Of a stretch of 50,092 nucleotides of DNA, positions 22,995 through 32,044 are shown piece after piece. The DNA comes from a virus. Location: positions 1 to 50,092 of IMG/VR virus record IMGVR_UViG_3300032249_000382; one strand, written 5' to 3'. Both the position numbers and the translations under genes were made by a program. Every line of letters starts with the position of its first letter. Position 1 is the stretch's first letter. Below the pieces are notes generated by a model that saw only the letters and a list, made by a program, of their open reading frames with translations, had not been told where the DNA came from and did not search any database.

Positions 22995-24224
22995 ATGGTA
23001 GCTGCTCCAGAAGAAACTAAGATGCCAGCTAGACCTTTAGCAATGTCTAGCCTATTTGATGAAATTGACCCTAGAAGGGTAGACAATAAGCCTTATATAG
23101 CAAAAGGCTATAAAATTCGCATGGAAATTTTCCTTGATATGATAAAGCAAGGAAGTCCTTTTCGAGATGCTAACGATTATGAAAAGACTTTCACTTTATC
23201 CGTTTCTGGTAGTGATGCTGGGTTGATTAATAAGGCAGTTAAAGAATTTAAAGAAAGCTATTATGATAGGTCAGTTCCTTATGAAGTAAGAAAAGAAATA
23301 AAGAAAAACATAACAAAGCCTCTGCGTGATGTTACTTTCACTAAAAGTGATGGAACAAAGATAAAAGTCACCTCTATCTATAAGACTAAGGCTTTTGGTG
23401 GTACAGAAAAACTTGAAGCGGCTGGAAAGCAGCATGAGTTTAAGACTATCGATCAGCTTAATAATATCATACAAAGTAGTATAAAAAAGTATGGTTCTTT
23501 CTATAAGGACAGTCCTAATTATATTCGTTTACGTGTTGATGGAAGAATTTATAAGGTTTCAAAATGTTTCGAGACTCCCAATATCAAAGGTCAGACTGTA
23601 AAATCGGATTTCCATATTGTAGATAACACAGGAAAAAATGTCATTTTCATTTCATATAAAGAAAGTGCAAAGCCCAGTGACGTTCAACAATGGGGTGGAT
23701 TAACAGAAGGTAAGATGCCGGATTATGCACAATCAAAAGATTTTATTGCAAAAGTTAAGAAACTGTATCCATTAGGGCTTCCTAATGCTACTGCTGTTGC
23801 GATGAAGATTGTTGGAAATAAAAGCACAGAAATCAAAAACAAATCTGTATTTGGCATTGATTGGATGCCGGGTGCAGCACCCGGATATCAAAACGTTAAT
23901 GTTGTGGCTAAAGGTAGATTGAGACTAAATCAAGTTACACCACCTAAACAAGGCGTACCTCCTCTTTATGAATTTACAGCAGCTCACTTTTTCTTTGGTG
24001 GCGATACACCTTCAGGCGAGACTGAGCCGGTATTTTATGCAAGATATGATAAAAGATCAGCTTTTGGCATAGGCAACGTTAGAATGTCTGTATTCCCAAA
24101 AGGCGGTATTAAAGGTTCGACACAGTGGATTGATCCTGCATCTAGTCCATCATCACCAAAAATAATAGGACAAAGTAAACTACAAACATATAAGCAAATT
24201 GAAAAAAGAAAAGGTGTGAAGTGA
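22995..24224 (+). CDS. Hypothetical virion-block protein, possible nuclease fold, 409 aa
   Basis: AGAGGGTAGAATAA precedes ATG 22995. The N-terminal 30 residues are Pro/Ala-rich and contain SSLFDEIDP, which recalls the tag of T4 Alt. A core segment near residues 207-225 reads SDFHIVDNTGKNVIFISYKE, an arrangement (Asp, then strand with Tyr-Lys) seen in PD-(D/E)xK nucleases, but the full motif cannot be confirmed by eye. The C-terminus is basic. It overlaps the ligase-like gene by four bases, so the two are probably made together. Confidence 0.6.
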   Translation: MVAAPEETKMPARPLAMSSLFDEIDPRRVDNKPYIAKGYKIRMEIFLDMIKQGSPFRDANDYEKTFTLSVSGSDAGLINKAVKEFKESYYDRSVPYEVRKEIKKNITKPLRDVTFTKSDGTKIKVTSIYKTKAFGGTEKLEAAGKQHEFKTIDQLNNIIQSSIKKYGSFYKDSPNYIRLRVDGRIYKVSKCFETPNIKGQTVKSDFHIVDNTGKNVIFISYKESAKPSDVQQWGGLTEGKMPDYAQSKDFIAKVKKLYPLGLPNATAVAMKIVGNKSTEIKNKSVFGIDWMPGAAPGYQNVNVVAKGRLRLNQVTPPKQGVPPLYEFTAAHFFFGGDTPSGETEPVFYARYDKRSAFGIGNVRMSVFPKGGIKGSTQWIDPASSPSSPKIIGQSKLQTYKQIEKRKGVK

Positions 24225-25465
24225 TCAGACTTAAAGATTATCTCACAGAAGCGGCCGCTGAAAAAGATCGGCATCTGACACACATTGAAGATGCCGTTCT
24301 GGAAGGTGGTGTTGCTGGCACTCGCAATGCTATTCAGTTCCTAATCTCCCTCCGTGATATGTTTGCTGATGATGGTAAAACTATCTCAGAAGCTAGAGGT
24401 GGTTTAATTCTTCGAACTAAGTTCGATGGCGCGCCCGCACTCTACGCAGGAATAAATCCTGAAAATGGAAAATTCTTCGTAGGTTCTAAAAGTATCTTTA
24501 ATAAAGGTGCTAAACTAAATTATACACAATCAGATATTAGAAGAAATCATTCTGGTGGATTAGCAGACAAGTTATCGCTTGCATTAAAATATCTACCAGA
24601 ATTGGGCATCAAAGATATCATTCATGGTGATTTTATGTATTCGAGAGATGAACTAAAATCAGAGACCATAGATGGTAAAAAATATATTACTTTTCGTCCA
24701 AATACTATTACTTATGCTGTTCCTGAGGGTACAACACTCTCTCGCCAAATACTTTCTTCTCGAATGGGAATTGTTTTCCACACTACTTATAGTGGTGCCA
24801 CTATGTCTACTCTCCAAACTCATTTCGATGTTGATATTGGTAGGTTAAGGGCATCCAAGAATGTGTGGTATCGTGAAAATAAATTTATGGATGTTACCGG
24901 TGCTGCTAGATTAACAAAAGTGGAAAATGATAGGCTATCTCTTATTCTTAAAGAAGCAGGCTCATTGTTCAGAACAATTCCGTCAGCATTACTAAATGAG
25001 ATTTCTACTAATGAAATGTATCGTGAACCAATAATGACATATTATAATCAAAAGGTTCGTGCTGGCCAGCAACACATGGGTGCAGGTCATATAAACGATA
25101 TTATTAAATTTATCACCGATAGATTCAATAAGAAGATATCGGAAGCTAAGATGCCTGCTACCAAAGCAAAGCGTAAAGCTGAAATGAATTTAATTATTAA
25201 ATGGTTCAGATCACACTCTGGTAATCTCAAGCTAATATTTAAATTGCAGAATATGTTGATTGATGCTAAGTTGATACTAATTCGCAAATTCAATCAAGTG
25301 AATGATATAGGTACATTCGTTCATACACAAGGTGGAGGATATCGTGTTACTAGTCCTGAAGGGTATGTTGCTGCTTGGAGTTCTGGTGGTGATGCTGTTA
25401 AGTTAATTGACCGAATGGACTTCAGTAGAGAAAACTTCTTAGCTGTAAAGAATTGGGGAAAATGA
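24221..25465 (+). CDS. ATP-dependent ligase-like nucleotidyltransferase, 414 aa
   Basis: LRTKFDGAPALYAG (about 66-79) holds the KxDG nucleotidyl-lysine motif of DNA/RNA ligases and capping enzymes. FFVGSKSIF follows, then IIHGDFMYS (motif III-like), ITFRPNTITYAVP (motif IIIa-like) and MGIVFHTTY (motif IV-like). I recall this as a conserved protein (DUF6267-type) of cyanophage-like viruses; ligase activity is unproven. The start MIRLKDYLTEA resembles the T4 capsid-targeting sequence with a prohead-protease site (LTE). Translation is coupled to both neighbours. Confidence 0.7.
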   Translation: MIRLKDYLTEAAAEKDRHLTHIEDAVLEGGVAGTRNAIQFLISLRDMFADDGKTISEARGGLILRTKFDGAPALYAGINPENGKFFVGSKSIFNKGAKLNYTQSDIRRNHSGGLADKLSLALKYLPELGIKDIIHGDFMYSRDELKSETIDGKKYITFRPNTITYAVPEGTTLSRQILSSRMGIVFHTTYSGATMSTLQTHFDVDIGRLRASKNVWYRENKFMDVTGAARLTKVENDRLSLILKEAGSLFRTIPSALLNEISTNEMYREPIMTYYNQKVRAGQQHMGAGHINDIIKFITDRFNKKISEAKMPATKAKRKAEMNLIIKWFRSHSGNLKLIFKLQNMLIDAKLILIRKFNQVNDIGTFVHTQGGGYRVTSPEGYVAAWSSGGDAVKLIDRMDFSRENFLAVKNWGK

Positions 25466-26091
25466 AAAATTTTACTGAATATCTAACAGAGGTAAAAAAA
25501 TCTAAAGTGGGACAAGGAACTCTTAATATATTTGATATAGATGATACCTTGTTTATGCCTAATGCTAAAACAAAAGTGGTTAAAGATGGTAAGATTGTTG
25601 GCCGTCTTTCGTCCGAACAACTAAAACATTATAAGACAAAACCTGGTGAGAGATTGGACTTTGGTGAGTTTCGTTCTGGTAAGCATTTTCATGATGCTGC
25701 CGAACCTATTGAAAAGATGATTAGACGGGCACAGTTAGTCGTTAAACACCAAGGTGGTAATTCAAGAACTATTATCGTAACTGCCAGGTCCGACTTATCA
25801 GATAAAGATGTATTCTTGAAAAAGTTCCGCGACCATGGATTTCCAATCGATCAGGTCCATGTCGAAAGGTCTGGTAATGTGTTTGGTGGTGGTAATGCTG
25901 CTCCATTATCAAAAGCAATTGTTATTCGTAAGTATATCAATAGTGGAAAGTTCAATAAGATTAGAATGTGGGACGACCACGAGGGAAACCTAAATATGCT
26001 ATTGAAGCTGGCCGAATTACATCCAGAGATTTCATTTGAAGCATATTTGGTAAATCCAAAAACAGGTACACCGACAAGATATGGAAAATAA
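25462..26091 (+). CDS. HAD-family phosphatase-like protein, 209 aa
   Basis: Start ATG 25462 overlaps the preceding stop (ATGA). FDIDDTLF (motif I, about 24-31), IIVTARS (motif II) and MWDDHEGN (motif III acidic pair) define a HAD hydrolase; T4 Pnkp (PseT) uses the same fold as its 3'-phosphatase. The first ten residues, MKNFTEYLTE, look like T4's capsid-targeting tag (MKTYQEFIAE), with a likely cleavage after Glu10. The substrate is not determined. Placement after a ligase-fold gene and before a kinase-containing gene suggests nucleic acid end repair. Confidence 0.75.
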   Translation: MKNFTEYLTEVKKSKVGQGTLNIFDIDDTLFMPNAKTKVVKDGKIVGRLSSEQLKHYKTKPGERLDFGEFRSGKHFHDAAEPIEKMIRRAQLVVKHQGGNSRTIIVTARSDLSDKDVFLKKFRDHGFPIDQVHVERSGNVFGGGNAAPLSKAIVIRKYINSGKFNKIRMWDDHEGNLNMLLKLAELHPEISFEAYLVNPKTGTPTRYGK

Positions 26092-26188
26092 AGAAGAAAA
26101 ACCTATTACTGAAACGGCTATAGTATCAATACTGGAGACGATTAAACGCATAGTCCGTAAGTTTAGGGAAAAAGAGAAACATAAATAA
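26081..26188 (+). CDS. Tiny helical protein, 35 aa
   Basis: ATG 26081 lies 11 bases inside the end of the HAD gene. MENKEEKPITETAIVSILET is followed by a basic helix (IKRIVRKFREKEKHK). The ribosome binding site is poor, so coupling is needed. The possible late box at 26180 overlaps its end. Confidence 0.4.
   Translation: MENKEEKPITETAIVSILETIKRIVRKFREKEKHK
26180..26187 (+). promoter_or_regulatory. Late promoter box CATAAATA
   Basis: Seven of eight positions match T4 TATAAATA. It lies 29 bases before the start of the multidomain gene at 26216, with GGGAGAGGA as that gene's ribosome binding site. Confidence 0.45.
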
Positions 26189-26215
26189 TCTATATAAACC
26201 CGCAGAGGGAGAGGA

Positions 26216-28234
26216 ATGAAAAAAGTTATATTCACGTTTGGTAGATATAATCCACCTACCACAGGCCACGCAGAACTAATCAATTATGCGGTAAGATTAG
26301 CACATAGAACAGGCGCCGAGCACCGCATCTATACATCCCAATCACATGACTCCTCCAAAAATCCATTAGCACCAAGGCAGAAGATGGCCTTTCTTCGTCA
26401 GGTATTCCCTGGTGTAAACTTTGTTGATGACCCATCCATGAAAACTGCCTTTCATATCTGTAAGAAATTGGCAGAAGAAGGTTATGAGGATGTGGTATTT
26501 GTGGTTGGTGATGACCGTGTAGCAGAGTTTTCAAACTCACTTGGTAAGTATGTTAAATCAAGAACTGCTAAAGATTTTGACCCTAAGAAACATTATCCAT
26601 TTAAAAAGTTTAAGGTAGAGTCCTCAGGTGCTAGAAAGAAAGGCATCTCTGGTACAGACCTTCGTGCCGCCGTTCGCAAGGGAGACTTTGCTACATTTGC
26701 TAAGGCCTCGGCTGCAAAAGATAAAACTTTGGCACGAAAAATATTTACGGCAACCAGAACTCAACTAAAAGAAGAATATCTCAGTGAAGAGAATAATGGA
26801 ATATCTCGTAAAGAGTTTCACGATAAACTAAAATCTTTTGTTGATTTTACTTGTGAAAAACTAGGTATTGATGAAAAACCTTCAATTAGATATAAAGAAG
26901 ATAGTAAAGATGGTCAGCAACCTTCATTTGGTGGATATGCACCTCATACAAAAGAATTGGTTGTGGTATCCAAGAACCGTCACCCAATGGACATTTTCAG
27001 AACTGTAGCTCATGAGTTGGTTCATCATAAGCAAAATGTAGATGGTCGATTAGGTAAGAATATTGAACAAGAAGGTGCTACAGGTTCAGATATTGAAAAC
27101 GAAGCAAACGCAGAAGCAGGTAAAATTATGCGTTATTTTGGAAAAGAAAATCCATTTTACTTCGATATGCAATATGTTACAGAAAATAAAGCTATTCTAT
27201 TAGGTGGTGTACCGGGTTCCGGTAAAGATAAAATCCTAAAAGAAGCAATTTTACCATTAGGTTATAAAGAATATTCACAAGAAAACTTCTGGGCCCACCA
27301 TGCTACAGGAGAAAATCTTGTTATTAACGGAACAATGTCTGGATATGAACAGACAAAACAAATCAAAGATATATTAGAGAGTGCCGGCTACGAAACTATT
27401 ATGGTCTTTGTCAATACCTCCAACGAGGTATCGAAACAGCGAAACGAAGCCAGAGCCGGTACTGGTGGTCGTGTAATCACTGAAACAACTAGATTTGCTA
27501 AGTGGAAGGCCGCCCAAGATAATCTTGATAGATATGATAGTTTATTTGAGAAAGTTATAGAGGTTAAGAATGATTTTAATGCTGATGATCTAGGAGAGAC
27601 CTGGTTTAAGCTCATTGAATCAATTTCTAAAGAATTGCATGATTTTACATTAACTGAATCAGATCGCAGATTTGAAACGATGTTGAATGAGGTTGGTGGT
27701 GCAGGCAATTGGGGAACCGCAAAACTTACTCGCAGATATCAGAAAGATACTCCTGGGCAGTTACCTAGCAAACCACAACCCATGAAAGTATTGAGACTGA
27801 AAGCGAAAATGAAAGAAGATAATAATACCTCACTGAAAACTCCAAGAATTTCTCCGGGCAGTATGCCTATTGGAGGAGATAGAATTGGCGATGAAATTGG
27901 GCTCCCAAAGTCACCAACATTTGGAGATAATCAAACAATTCCAACCATTGGTAATAGTGATCCTATTGCTAGATGGATGATGAAAGAAGAAACCAAGAAA
28001 AAGTTTCGTGAGAGATATGGTTCTCTTGCGGAGCAGAAAATTAGAGAAACTGCATCTAGACTGGCAAAATGTGAAAGTTTGGATGACCCTTATACAGGTG
28101 GAATGTCCGATGTATCGGTCACAGGTGGTCCTCCAGAAGATGTTATGTATGGTGGTAAAAGAATGGTCGGAGCAGACCAAGAAAAAACCAGCCTATTTGG
28201 GAAAAGAAAAAGACTAAATACCAAAAAGAAATAA
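26216..28234 (+). CDS. Multidomain nucleotidyltransferase / metalloprotease / P-loop kinase protein, 672 aa
   Basis: Domain 1 (1-185): NMNAT/NadR-type nucleotidyltransferase with FGRYNPPTTGHAEL (TxGH) and GISGTDLR. Domain 2 (about 192-318): SprT/minigluzincin-like zinc peptidase with HELVHH (266-271). Domain 3 (about 324-475): P-loop kinase with GGVPGSGKD (330-338), like zeta toxin or polynucleotide kinases. Tail (480-672): polar, with NEVGGAGNWGTAKLTRRY, a phrase I associate with cyanophage virion-linked proteins. Each junction carries an LxE-like site: YLSE 188-191, YVTE 320-323, TLTE 478-481, MLNE 489-492. It may be a packaged polyprotein cut by the prohead protease. Confidence 0.8.
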   Translation: MKKVIFTFGRYNPPTTGHAELINYAVRLAHRTGAEHRIYTSQSHDSSKNPLAPRQKMAFLRQVFPGVNFVDDPSMKTAFHICKKLAEEGYEDVVFVVGDDRVAEFSNSLGKYVKSRTAKDFDPKKHYPFKKFKVESSGARKKGISGTDLRAAVRKGDFATFAKASAAKDKTLARKIFTATRTQLKEEYLSEENNGISRKEFHDKLKSFVDFTCEKLGIDEKPSIRYKEDSKDGQQPSFGGYAPHTKELVVVSKNRHPMDIFRTVAHELVHHKQNVDGRLGKNIEQEGATGSDIENEANAEAGKIMRYFGKENPFYFDMQYVTENKAILLGGVPGSGKDKILKEAILPLGYKEYSQENFWAHHATGENLVINGTMSGYEQTKQIKDILESAGYETIMVFVNTSNEVSKQRNEARAGTGGRVITETTRFAKWKAAQDNLDRYDSLFEKVIEVKNDFNADDLGETWFKLIESISKELHDFTLTESDRRFETMLNEVGGAGNWGTAKLTRRYQKDTPGQLPSKPQPMKVLRLKAKMKEDNNTSLKTPRISPGSMPIGGDRIGDEIGLPKSPTFGDNQTIPTIGNSDPIARWMMKEETKKKFRERYGSLAEQKIRETASRLAKCESLDDPYTGGMSDVSVTGGPPEDVMYGGKRMVGADQEKTSLFGKRKRLNTKKK

Positions 28235-28237
28235 ATA
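28230..28237 (+). promoter_or_regulatory. Late promoter-like box AATAAATA
   Basis: AATAAATA overlaps the stop of the preceding gene and lies 31 bases before ATG 28268. A second TTAAATAA and an upstream CTAAATA (28214-28220) make the true box uncertain. Confidence 0.35.
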
Positions 28238-28267
28238 ATTATTAAATAACTTTTAAAGGAACCAAAA

Positions 28268-29788
28268 ATGTTTAATAACCCATTTCTAAAGAAAGATCCT
28301 CTCTTAGAGGCTGTCAAAGGAGCCATGCAGGATGGCGATATCCGTCGTCAGGCTATTGCACATGTAAACGAAGAGTTTGGTGTGTTTAACCGTAATGGTC
28401 TCGTTCGTGAAAACCTTGCTGCTTATGATGCTCGTATTGAAGAGGTCTATAAATCTATGAAGGAAAATGAAGAAGATGATGAAGCAGAAAAACAAATGCA
28501 AAGTGGTGTAAAAGTCACCAGAAAAAATAGCGATGGATCAGTAACAGATTTAGGTAGATCAAAAGAAGGTGCTGCAAATGACGCTGCGAAAAAAGCAGCA
28601 GGAGAAATGCAGAGTTCTGGAGGTTATACTCCTGGTGGATCATCTTCATCAGGTTCCTCATCAGGTTCTTCAAGTTATAGCCGAGTTAATAAATTTGAAG
28701 AGGCATATAAGTGCATGAAAGAAGGTAAGCCTCTTTCTCCAAAACAAGAAAAAATGGCTGCTATTGCTGGTGATCCAAAGAAGATTGATGCCGCAGACCT
28801 TAAAGCTCTCCGTTCTGGTAAGAAAATGAATGAGAAGAAAGGTTGCTACGAAGAAGGCAATGATGGTAACCTTGCTAACAATTATCCTCCATATGACAAA
28901 GTAACTCGTGGTGATGTTATTGCCGGCCGTCTTGGTAAAGATCAGATGGGTGGTAAGAAAAAAGTTGATGAGAAAAAAGGTTGCTACGAAGAAGGTGCTA
29001 TGGACTCCGATGTTGTCGGTGGTGGTTCAGTAACTAAAGATAATAAACCAGTTGTTTCTTCAACAGCATCAAAAGTAAATACATCAGGCCCATCTGCCGC
29101 AGATAGAGCAGGTCTTGCTGCCAAGATCGGTGCTATGAAAGAAGCAAAAAAAATGGAAGAAGGTAAGAAATGGATCTCTAAGGCTATTAAGAAGCCGGGA
29201 GCCCTCTCAAAGCAATTGGGTGTTCCAGAGAAAGAAAACATTCCTGCCAAGAAATTGAAAGCTGCTGCTGATCAACCTGGTAAACTCGGTAAGAGAGCTA
29301 GACTAGCACAGACATTAAAGAAAATGGCTCGTAAGAGAACCATGGAAGAAGAACTAAACATTGCAAAGGGTGATACACTATCAAGCCTAGCAAAAAAGAA
29401 TAATACTTCGGTCGACGCTCTAGCGAAAGCAAATAATATTAAAGATGTGAACAAGATTCAGGCCGGTTCATCCCTAAAATTGCCAACTGTTGATAAGACA
29501 CCTGCACCTACAACTTCATGGGTCAATCCATCAACAAAAGATTATTCAGCTTCAAACAAGGGAGTTGATAAGCCAACTACATCCGCTCCTCTACCATCAA
29601 TGTCTACCGCATCACCGAAAACCGGTGCTGGTGCAGGAGTCTCTTCTCTACCTGGGGCTAGTCAGACCGCATCTATTGCTAACCCTAAGCCTTCTATGGA
29701 CCCTGGTTCAATGGAAAATGCAAAGCGTCAAACCGGTTCACTGAATGAATGTGTTCAGGTTGGTGATAAGTCCTATAGGATTATTTAA
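28268..29788 (+). CDS. LysM-containing virion-type protein with repeats, 506 aa
   Basis: A low-complexity modular protein. A helical N-terminus (DPLLEAVKGAM) leads to a Gly/Ser-rich linker (about 115-140) and two copies of EKKGCYEEG (about 190 and 236). KKWISKAIKKPGALSKQLGV to LGKRARLAQTLKKM (about 298-358) is a motif widespread in phage proteins but of unknown role. A LysM domain follows (about 363-404: NIAKGDTLSSLAKKNNTSVD, then NNIKDVNKIQAGSSLKLP), which binds peptidoglycan glycan. The tail is Pro/Ser/Thr-rich. Position suggests an internal or surface virion protein. AAAGGAACCAAAA precedes the ATG. Confidence 0.7.
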   Translation: MFNNPFLKKDPLLEAVKGAMQDGDIRRQAIAHVNEEFGVFNRNGLVRENLAAYDARIEEVYKSMKENEEDDEAEKQMQSGVKVTRKNSDGSVTDLGRSKEGAANDAAKKAAGEMQSSGGYTPGGSSSSGSSSGSSSYSRVNKFEEAYKCMKEGKPLSPKQEKMAAIAGDPKKIDAADLKALRSGKKMNEKKGCYEEGNDGNLANNYPPYDKVTRGDVIAGRLGKDQMGGKKKVDEKKGCYEEGAMDSDVVGGGSVTKDNKPVVSSTASKVNTSGPSAADRAGLAAKIGAMKEAKKMEEGKKWISKAIKKPGALSKQLGVPEKENIPAKKLKAAADQPGKLGKRARLAQTLKKMARKRTMEEELNIAKGDTLSSLAKKNNTSVDALAKANNIKDVNKIQAGSSLKLPTVDKTPAPTTSWVNPSTKDYSASNKGVDKPTTSAPLPSMSTASPKTGAGAGVSSLPGASQTASIANPKPSMDPGSMENAKRQTGSLNECVQVGDKSYRII

Positions 29789-30006
29789 TGGGTAAACAGA
29801 TGGGTAGCCCAGAAGAAGGTTCTAGAACACTGGGTGTAATTGAAAAGAGATATGGTACAACAAAGAAACTTGCGGCAGAGGGTTCCAAAGGTGCCCTCTC
29901 CAAAGTAAAAAACATGAAGGCCAACAAGACCGATACAGGAAAACCTGCTGATCCCGTAGAGTTGGATCCGGTAAAAAATGATATTATTGGTCAAGGCTAT
30001 AACTAA
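29788..30006 (+). CDS. Small basic hypothetical protein, 72 aa
   Basis: The ATG overlaps the preceding stop by one base. MGKQMGSPEEGSRTLGVIEK and Lys/Ala-rich helices; no known motif. Its place between two virion-type genes suggests a structural or packaged protein. Confidence 0.6.
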   Translation: MGKQMGSPEEGSRTLGVIEKRYGTTKKLAAEGSKGALSKVKNMKANKTDTGKPADPVELDPVKNDIIGQGYN

Positions 30007-30026
30007 CAAAGAAAAGGATAAGTAAA

Positions 30027-30647
30027 ATGCCATTATGGGGTAATAAAGATAACGCTGCCAATTCAGATATTGCCGGCGTTGCATACATTAACAGAACAAG
30101 AACTACTGCTAACCAAACAGCACTATACGGTAATACCCGTATCGGTCAGTTCATCACCAACACATCAATCGGCCAGTTCGCCGTTGATACAAACGAAATG
30201 CAGGCTTCTCAGACTACCGCTCATCCTCAACATTCAGGTTGGGTTATTCGTCGTGAAGGAACCGGCCTTCGTGCAGGTCGAGTTACATATGAAACCTTGG
30301 TTGCTATGGGTTCAATTGCAACCGACGGATCCGATGATACGAACTTCCCTGATTATAAATTGACTATCACCACACAGCCATCTAGTGCAAATGGTGCTGG
30401 TAACGTAACACTAACTGTTGCTGCAACATCCACACCATCTGGTGCCACATTGTCTTACCTTTGGCAGCGTAATCCGGGTTCTGGCTGGGTCACAGTTGCT
30501 AATACTGCTGGTGTATATTTCAAAAATACTTCACCATCATTTATTGCAAATGCTGCTGTTGCAAACGCCAATACATTCCGAGTCATCGTTTCGGCAACAG
30601 GTGCAAACAGCGTAACATCTTCAAATGCATCCGTAACCACACCATAA
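30027..30647 (+). CDS. Virion decoration-type protein with Ig-like domain, 206 aa
   Basis: AGAAAAGGATAAGTAAA precedes the ATG. The N-terminal 110 residues (MPLWGNKDNAANSDIAGVAY; GWVIRREGTGLRAGRVTYET; LVAMGSIATDG) match a structural protein common in cyanophage-type T4-like viruses. Residues about 114-206 (LTITTQPSSANGAGNVTLTV; LSYLWQRNPGSGWVTVANTA) are an immunoglobulin-like domain of the kind displayed on capsids and tails. Such domains may bind host-surface glycans, which is inference. Confidence 0.72.
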   Translation: MPLWGNKDNAANSDIAGVAYINRTRTTANQTALYGNTRIGQFITNTSIGQFAVDTNEMQASQTTAHPQHSGWVIRREGTGLRAGRVTYETLVAMGSIATDGSDDTNFPDYKLTITTQPSSANGAGNVTLTVAATSTPSGATLSYLWQRNPGSGWVTVANTAGVYFKNTSPSFIANAAVANANTFRVIVSATGANSVTSSNASVTTP

Positions 30648-30658
30648 GGAGAGTTTAA

Positions 30659-32044
30659 ATGAAAACTTTCCTTAATTATTTAAAAGAGGAAGTAACACCA
30701 ACCGCTCTAAGCGATGGTAGTATTGATATCGAGAAAGATTCTGTTCGTCAGGAGATTAATGGAATCCTTTCTGGAATTAGCACATATTCTTGTGTAACTC
30801 CATATAGTGCTTTGACTAAAATTCGCAAGGCACTGGCCTACTTTCATGTTTATCTTCCAAAAAGATCATACATGGAAGGAAATCATGGTGTAGAAGTTTG
30901 GGAGATTCACCAATTCGGACAGAAAATGGGTATGACTGATCAAGGTGAGTTCATTAATGATACTCCTGTAAAGTTCTATCTATTCTTCCACTATCATCTA
31001 ATTGGTTCAATGTTTATGATTAATGCTAAAGTTGTTGATAAGAATCAATTAGAGAAAGAGTTGGACTTTGCTGAAAGTATGATCAAAGAAGATGCTGAAA
31101 TGCGTCAAGGTCGTGCTAAAGCAATAGCACCAAAAGAAGAACCCCATACCGCATTAGGAGACTGCGATTGTAGTCAGGGTGATTCTCCAAGTACCAAATC
31201 TGCCGTATCTGTAATGATGCGTAGGAAAGATAAGAAACTATCTTCTGGTGAATTAGATGAAGGTCGTATGCCTGCTTCTGTTATTAAGCATAAGCAGAAA
31301 CTTGCCAGCATGTCACCAGATGACTTGAAAAAGAAGTTTGCTGGTAAGTCAGAGCAAGAATTAAAGTCAATGGCTCGTCGTCATGGTTATGGCCCAGACA
31401 GCGATGTCTATTCTAAGCATGTCGCTGTTAAAGAAGAAACCGATGCTGCCGATGAAACAAATATGGCCAAATCACAACTAAAGGCCATAGGAGCAAAGTC
31501 GTCAAATCTAGTTTCACTGATGAAAAAATCAAAGAATCTTCCAGCATGGGTTCAGAGTAAACTATCTGTTGCTAAAGATGGCATCACTTCTGTTGATGAC
31601 TATATGACCCATAGTGATAATAAACTTGATGAGGTTTCTCTAGGCAAACTTGTTCGCTATAAGAACAAGGCTGGCGAAGGTCGTGAAAAGGGTGTTGCTC
31701 TTGCTGATAAGAAGATGAAAGGCAAAGCCAAAGTCAATGCTTCTATGCCTAAGCATCCTTACATGGAAGGTCTTACTGTTGAACCAGTAGATAGACCTAA
31801 GGATTCAAGTTCTTCTCCTAATCCAACATCTTCTGATATTTCAAATCCATCACAAGAAACCAAAAATCGTGCAAGAATGGGTGCAACACCGGCTGTTCGG
31901 GAATCAGCACCTTCAGGCGCCAAGTTTGAGCGTATGGTAAAGCATATTAAAAAGGGTTACTCTAAAGATGGTCTAACAGCCAAAGAAAAGGGTATCGCTT
32001 ACGCCACAGCATGGAAGGCCAAGAAGAACGAAAATTCAGAATAA
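30659..32044 (+). CDS. Virion-associated modular protein with capsid-targeting-like tag, 461 aa
   Basis: AGGAGAGTTTAA precedes the ATG. MKTFLNYLKEEV closely resembles T4's capsid-targeting start (MKTYQEFIAEA), with LKE as a possible cleavage site. The N-terminal domain (about 20-145) is globular and unrecognised, followed by a polar linker (ending near 180-210). The last 35 residues (FERMVKHIKKGYSKDGLTAK, then EKGIAYATAWKAKK) are a short module found at the end of many cyanophage and marine myovirus proteins. Function unknown; packaging inside the head is inferred from the tag. Confidence 0.68.
   Translation: MKTFLNYLKEEVTPTALSDGSIDIEKDSVRQEINGILSGISTYSCVTPYSALTKIRKALAYFHVYLPKRSYMEGNHGVEVWEIHQFGQKMGMTDQGEFINDTPVKFYLFFHYHLIGSMFMINAKVVDKNQLEKELDFAESMIKEDAEMRQGRAKAIAPKEEPHTALGDCDCSQGDSPSTKSAVSVMMRRKDKKLSSGELDEGRMPASVIKHKQKLASMSPDDLKKKFAGKSEQELKSMARRHGYGPDSDVYSKHVAVKEETDAADETNMAKSQLKAIGAKSSNLVSLMKKSKNLPAWVQSKLSVAKDGITSVDDYMTHSDNKLDEVSLGKLVRYKNKAGEGREKGVALADKKMKGKAKVNASMPKHPYMEGLTVEPVDRPKDSSSSPNPTSSDISNPSQETKNRARMGATPAVRESAPSGAKFERMVKHIKKGYSKDGLTAKEKGIAYATAWKAKKNENSE

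Follow-up and report, generated by a model that had tools for sequence, protein, structure and literature searches.

The locus analyzed here raises the question of whether a T4-like phage packs enzymes into its head and delivers them to the host together with its DNA. The window, that is, the whole stretch of DNA analyzed (50,092 nt), is a T4-like phage contig that encodes DNA polymerase, UvsX, helicase, primase, and ribonucleotide reductase and that carries, between the helicase and primase genes, a cluster with three proteins whose first ten residues resemble the capsid-targeting sequence of T4 internal proteins. Because there are three such head-packing tags, and because one of the tagged proteins is ligase-like, it is probable that the phage delivers enzymes to its host. 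As an account of the locus as a whole we favor a T4-style internal-protein system that carries enzymes, and we consider it likely. The T4-style system is known; what would be new is a variant with enzyme cargo that includes a predicted divergent enzyme of the ligase superfamily.

N-terminal tags on three proteins

The tags are MIRLKDYLTE (24221..24250, + strand; DUF6267 protein, predicted cut after LTE), MKNFTEYLTE (25462..25491, +; HAD protein), and MKTFLNYLKE (30659..30688, +; the protein starting at 30659). All three have hydrophobic residues at positions 4, 7, and 8 and Glu at position 10, which is the T4 pattern, and all end in LxE: LTE, LTE, and LKE, respectively. The called starts of 24221 (a GTG codon) and 25462 (an ATG codon) are supported by the overlap of each start (GTGA and ATGA) with the stop codon of the preceding gene, and 30659, which starts with ATG, is preceded by AGGAG, a good ribosome-binding site. 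The first-pass annotation had described three T4-like capsid-targeting tags, each finishing in an LxE prohead-protease site; the sequences, the starts, and the LxE ends are confirmed, and the tags are above chance and conserved in homologues, as set out below.

The hydrophobic motif is short, and a looser version of the pattern also matched UvsX in the window (8922), a false positive that led us to replace the loose pattern with a strict one; that all three tags match by coincidence is an explanation to be weighed. To estimate chance, we shuffled the N-terminal residues of all ORFs of at least 120 aa and recounted the tags. The window has 3 tags at protein starts, against 0.09 expected, and four near-complete relatives (165-174 kb) have 2-5, against 0.07-0.27 expected. 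Across 80 related loci, the strict pattern matches 112 sense ORFs and 0 antisense ORFs. The tag is present in 75 of 79 homologous ORFs of the DUF6267 family, in 12 of 12 of the 30659 family, where it is kept down to 35% identity, and in 16 of 31 of the HAD family, so that about half of the HAD homologues have a missing or degenerate tag; in the related loci, other neighbor families are almost untagged (1 of 24 P-loop homologues and 0 in the remaining families). As a positive control, a strict pattern of the same type, applied to 50 kb of T4, matches exactly IPII and IPIII, which share the start MKTYQEFIAE, whereas IPI escapes it. With these counts, and with the link between tag and virion detection described below, coincidence is very improbable. 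We conclude that the tags are real and that they very probably have a capsid-targeting role.

According to T4 mutagenesis, residues 4 and 7 act in targeting and residues 8 and 10 in processing, with cleavage by the prohead protease gp21 after L/I-x-E (PMC9026906). Among 53 distinct 10-residue tags, entropy is low at positions 4, 7, 8, and 10 and high at positions 3, 5, 6, and 9, a contrast that is partly built in, because the pattern itself fixes the allowed residues at the four low-entropy positions; an alignment of DUF6267 homologues picked without regard to the tag shows the same contrast. The conserved residues of these putative targeting tags coincide with the T4 functional positions 4, 7, 8, and 10. 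A gp21-type prohead protease (PF03420) is present in 4 of 4 near-complete relatives and absent from the 50 kb window, the window being a genome fragment. The likeness to T4 IPI, IPII, IPIII, and gp21 therefore comprises the 10-residue N-terminal tag, its key positions, its LxE end, and a T4-type protease found in relatives of the window phage. The difference is that the T4 internal proteins are small inhibitors, whereas the cargo predicted here includes enzyme-like proteins.

We propose that, as the head assembles, each tagged protein would be docked in the prohead core by its first ten residues, chiefly residues 4 and 7, that a T4-type prohead protease would then cut behind the LxE at residues 8-10, and that the trimmed protein would remain with the DNA and reach the next host by ejection. 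Cargo carrying the tag would comprise the DUF6267 protein with its ligase/capping-type catalytic domain, the HAD phosphatase, and the basic 30659 protein. Packaging of the tagged proteins in this phage is, in our assessment, highly likely.

Further tagged proteins occur in relatives of the window phage. A protein of 353-361 aa is tagged in some of them (MQGFKTFLSEAK, MKNFKQFISEEV; L083 10923-12008, in Melnitz; L052 1489; L053 3593); in Melnitz the gene sits directly upstream of DUF6267, and its positional counterpart in the window (22995) is untagged.

Tagged proteins in virions of related phages

Published virion proteomics of cyanophages bears on whether tagged proteins are packaged. In S-SM1, the T4-GC190 cytidyltransferase was detected in virions by mass spectrometry (PMC3037559); its N-terminus, MKKFSAFLNEAE, is tagged, and this is the sole tag within the 49 kb of S-SM1 examined. 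In S-SZBM1, the protein S-SZBM1_140, with the tagged N-terminus MRFRQFIIEA, was likewise detected, and two further tagged proteins, both small, are absent from the detected set (PMC9146016), so that the rule linking tag to packaging is imperfect. In S-CREM2, the strict pattern picks out six annotated proteins, and five of them were detected (proteomics: PMC10665884): gp6 (SAM hydrolase), gp13, gp14 (APH-like kinase), gp136, and gp154 (cytidylyltransferase). The corresponding figure for the other CDS is 47 of 213 (Fisher p=0.003), and with non-structural CDS only, the association of tag with detection gives p=2e-4; with the looser pattern it is weaker (5 of 9 tagged proteins detected, p=0.04). 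The results show that, in relatives, tags are associated with detection in virions. In line with this, the cytidylyltransferase of S-PM2, which lies in an untagged fusion protein, is reported as encoded but missing from the proteins detected in S-PM2 virions (PMC3037559).

The authors of the S-CREM2 study warn that carry-over through CsCl purification is possible (PMC10665884). The cyanophage virion papers examined do not tie packaging to a tag and report no trimmed N-termini in what was examined, and among the papers searched, capsid targeting and cyanophages are mentioned jointly only in one T4 review. Virion proteomics of marine phages has repeatedly yielded enzymes that are left unexplained or are suspected of being carry-over; a T4-type packing tag would account for them, and would offer a simple sequence rule for listing the injected proteins of marine and freshwater T4-like phages. 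What such phages inject at entry thereby becomes a directly testable question.

Two S-CREM2 proteins detected by mass spectrometry would be striking injected cargo: the SAM hydrolase gp6 (L091 3837-5081), tagged MKDFDSFLEE, and a Cas9, gp12 (L091 7704-10313), which has the tag-like sequence LRFASFMAEA ~17 residues in.

Predicted folds of the tagged proteins

The DUF6267 protein (24221..25465, +; 414 aa; PF19782, E=2e-97) had been described as a KxDG ligase-fold protein. Pfam labels its family a domain of unknown function; the family is widespread, with matches in 470 phage records, and none of the papers searched names it. Its invariant residues occur in the order of a covalent nucleotidyltransferase: motif I, KFDG (24419..24430, +), whose K is the predicted nucleophile K67 and whose K, D, and G do not vary across 39 homologues; an Asp where motif III would lie; and motifs IV (EGYV) and V (25358..25414, +), with E380, G381, V383, and K394 invariant in the homologue alignment. 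DNA ligases, T4 Rnl2, Trl1, and capping enzymes have KxDG, EGxV, and the motif V Lys in the same order. The DUF6267 protein differs from these enzymes in having GD/AD at the motif III position, a helical insert, and no OB domain, the protein ending ~20 residues past motif V.

The model of the window protein (pLDDT 75) has mixed PDB matches, the first ten of which include DNA ligases and T4 Rnl2; this search was set aside, because the helical insert confused the matches, and a shorter cyanophage homologue was modeled instead (pLDDT 87, pTM 0.83). For this compact homologue, the 13 best PDB matches found by Foldseek are all DNA, tRNA, or RNA ligases (best E=0.04, none individually significant). 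A sequence search of the PDB with the DUF6267 profile returned chance matches only. The KxDG motif of the earlier description stands, a ligase-superfamily fold is highly likely, and the OB domain of the ligases is missing; as far as the sequence tells, the protein is a ligase-type nucleotidyltransferase, predicted to be a divergent one of the ligase/capping type, and we do not file it as a ligase. A widespread family thereby gains a predicted catalytic fold and a predicted place in the virion.

The second tagged protein (25462..26091, +; 209 aa) is, as had been claimed, a HAD protein: a HAD-like phosphatase with DIDDT, TARSD, and WDDHEGN motifs, in which D25, D27, T29, D171, and D172, comprising the DxDxT and DD motifs, are invariant in 22 homologues. 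Its family scores are weak (polynucleotide kinase phrog_415, 5e-6; DUF2608, 5e-4). The HAD profile gave only chance matches in a sequence search of the PDB; tblastn found no homologues in phage records, and IMG/VR loci contain 30. Membership in the Swiss Army Knife RNA-repair HAD group was considered and rejected, a single family member having matched (E=0.035). The third tagged protein (30659..32044, +; 461 aa) is basic, has no enzyme domain recognizable in Pfam and PHROG profile searches, and is a candidate internal head protein.

The character of the 30659 protein invites the proposal that the tags serve head assembly only and that their bearers are structural or scaffold-like proteins of the prohead core with no catalysis in the host, as does the fact that in T4, gp21 cleaves core proteins too (PMC9026906). 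However, the DUF6267 protein retains invariant catalytic-type motifs, the HAD protein retains its DxDxT and DD motifs, and among the tagged proteins of S-CREM2 are a SAM hydrolase and one that resembles kinases, which makes a purely structural role unlikely.

The untagged partner and the possible function of the set

The gene between the HAD and 30659 genes (26216..28234, +; 672 aa) had been read as a P-loop kinase, a nucleotidyltransferase, and a metalloprotease in one protein. All three domains are present: an HxGH nucleotidyltransferase (GRYNPPTTGH, 26240-26269; CTP_transf_like and cytidyltransferase PHROGs), a zincin (HELVHH, 27011-27028), and a P-loop (27206-27229), all on the + strand; the best score of the P-loop is to zeta toxin/AAA_33 (Pfam; Zeta_toxin). 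The protein has no tag in the window or in the window's clade. The first-pass annotation mentioned neither this missing tag nor the lack of a recognizable enzyme domain in the 30659 protein.

The tagged virion cytidylyltransferase/NMNAT-like proteins of S-SM1, S-SZBM1, and S-CREM2 are homologous to the N-terminal part of the 26216 protein, and those of S-SM1 and S-SZBM1 adjoin DUF6267. In these three phages, the nucleotidyltransferase is tagged and detected in virions; in the window, DUF6267 is tagged and the nucleotidyltransferase is not. DUF6267 and the HxGH nucleotidyltransferase adjoin in many of these phages, and the bearer of the tag depends on the clade: DUF6267 in the window's clade, the partner in cyanophages, where contigs show a tagged nucleotidyltransferase in 32 cases and an untagged adjoining DUF6267 in 36. 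S-PM2 combines both in a single untagged protein of 591 residues, and PHROG 455 covers both domains. From the adjacency, the clade-dependent position of the tag, the S-PM2 fusion, and PHROG 455, we infer that DUF6267 and the nucleotidyltransferase work jointly and that a single tag suffices for each unit; the untagged 26216 protein may ride in bound to the DUF6267 protein.

Proteins of the 26216 family have 9-16 LxE sites each, compared with ~5 in shuffled sequences; most of the replication genes checked lack such a two- to threefold excess. This excess is a weak hint that the 26216 protein may also meet the protease.

As to function, it had been proposed that ligase, phosphatase, and kinase would together heal and seal nucleic-acid ends. 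The domain types fit, and repair or modification of nucleic-acid ends on entry is our first choice, held tentatively; the 26216 protein, which would supply the kinase, is untagged. The set resembles the T4 Pnkp and Rnl1 tRNA-repair system in encoding ligase-like, phosphatase-like, and P-loop domains together; T4 Pnkp and Rnl1 are not known to be targeted to the capsid.

Since the 26216 protein is untagged, has a P-loop of zeta toxin/AAA_33 type, and has a nucleotidyltransferase with weak resemblance to NMN adenylyltransferase and NadR models, NAD restoration is a real rival to end repair. The packaged set would then serve NAD/nucleotide metabolism: the HxGH domain would be an NMN adenylyltransferase and the P-loop a NadR-like kinase (NadR combining an adenylyltransferase with a P-loop kinase), delivery at entry would restore NAD against NAD-depleting defenses, and AMP transfer in a related reaction would fall to DUF6267. 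The S-PM2 fusion matches TIGR00482 at 3e-6, cyanophage authors name these virion proteins NMNAT-like (PMC9602691), and NAD-synthesis enzymes are carried by phages as a counter-strategy (PMC9503650). However, the 26216 protein passes none of the curated NMNAT/NadR models (its best NadR match scores 15.6 bits, the cut-off being 341), its P-loop has its best score elsewhere, and the HAD and KxDG domains are left without a role; we regard a metabolic function as possible but less likely than not. Under end repair and NAD restoration alike, counter-defense at entry is a natural setting, because T4 IP1-3 are injected and inhibit type IV restriction enzymes (PMC12373910).

A more speculative combination, which we consider improbable, is that DUF6267 and its partner form one capsid-delivered machine whose tag shifted between subunits in evolution: a nucleic-acid ligase that arrives with the genome and has its own nucleotide-cofactor supply, for example through an HxGH domain recycling NMN to NAD. 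Such a machine would seal ends ahead of any phage gene expression.

Two minor observations concern other genes. An untagged LysM-domain protein is encoded between 26216 and 30659 (window 28268-29788). The relative G004 encodes additional tagged proteins of 109-309 aa, at 56990, 140482, 166344, and 570 (L119, L124, L125, and L117, respectively), which are candidate injected cargo.
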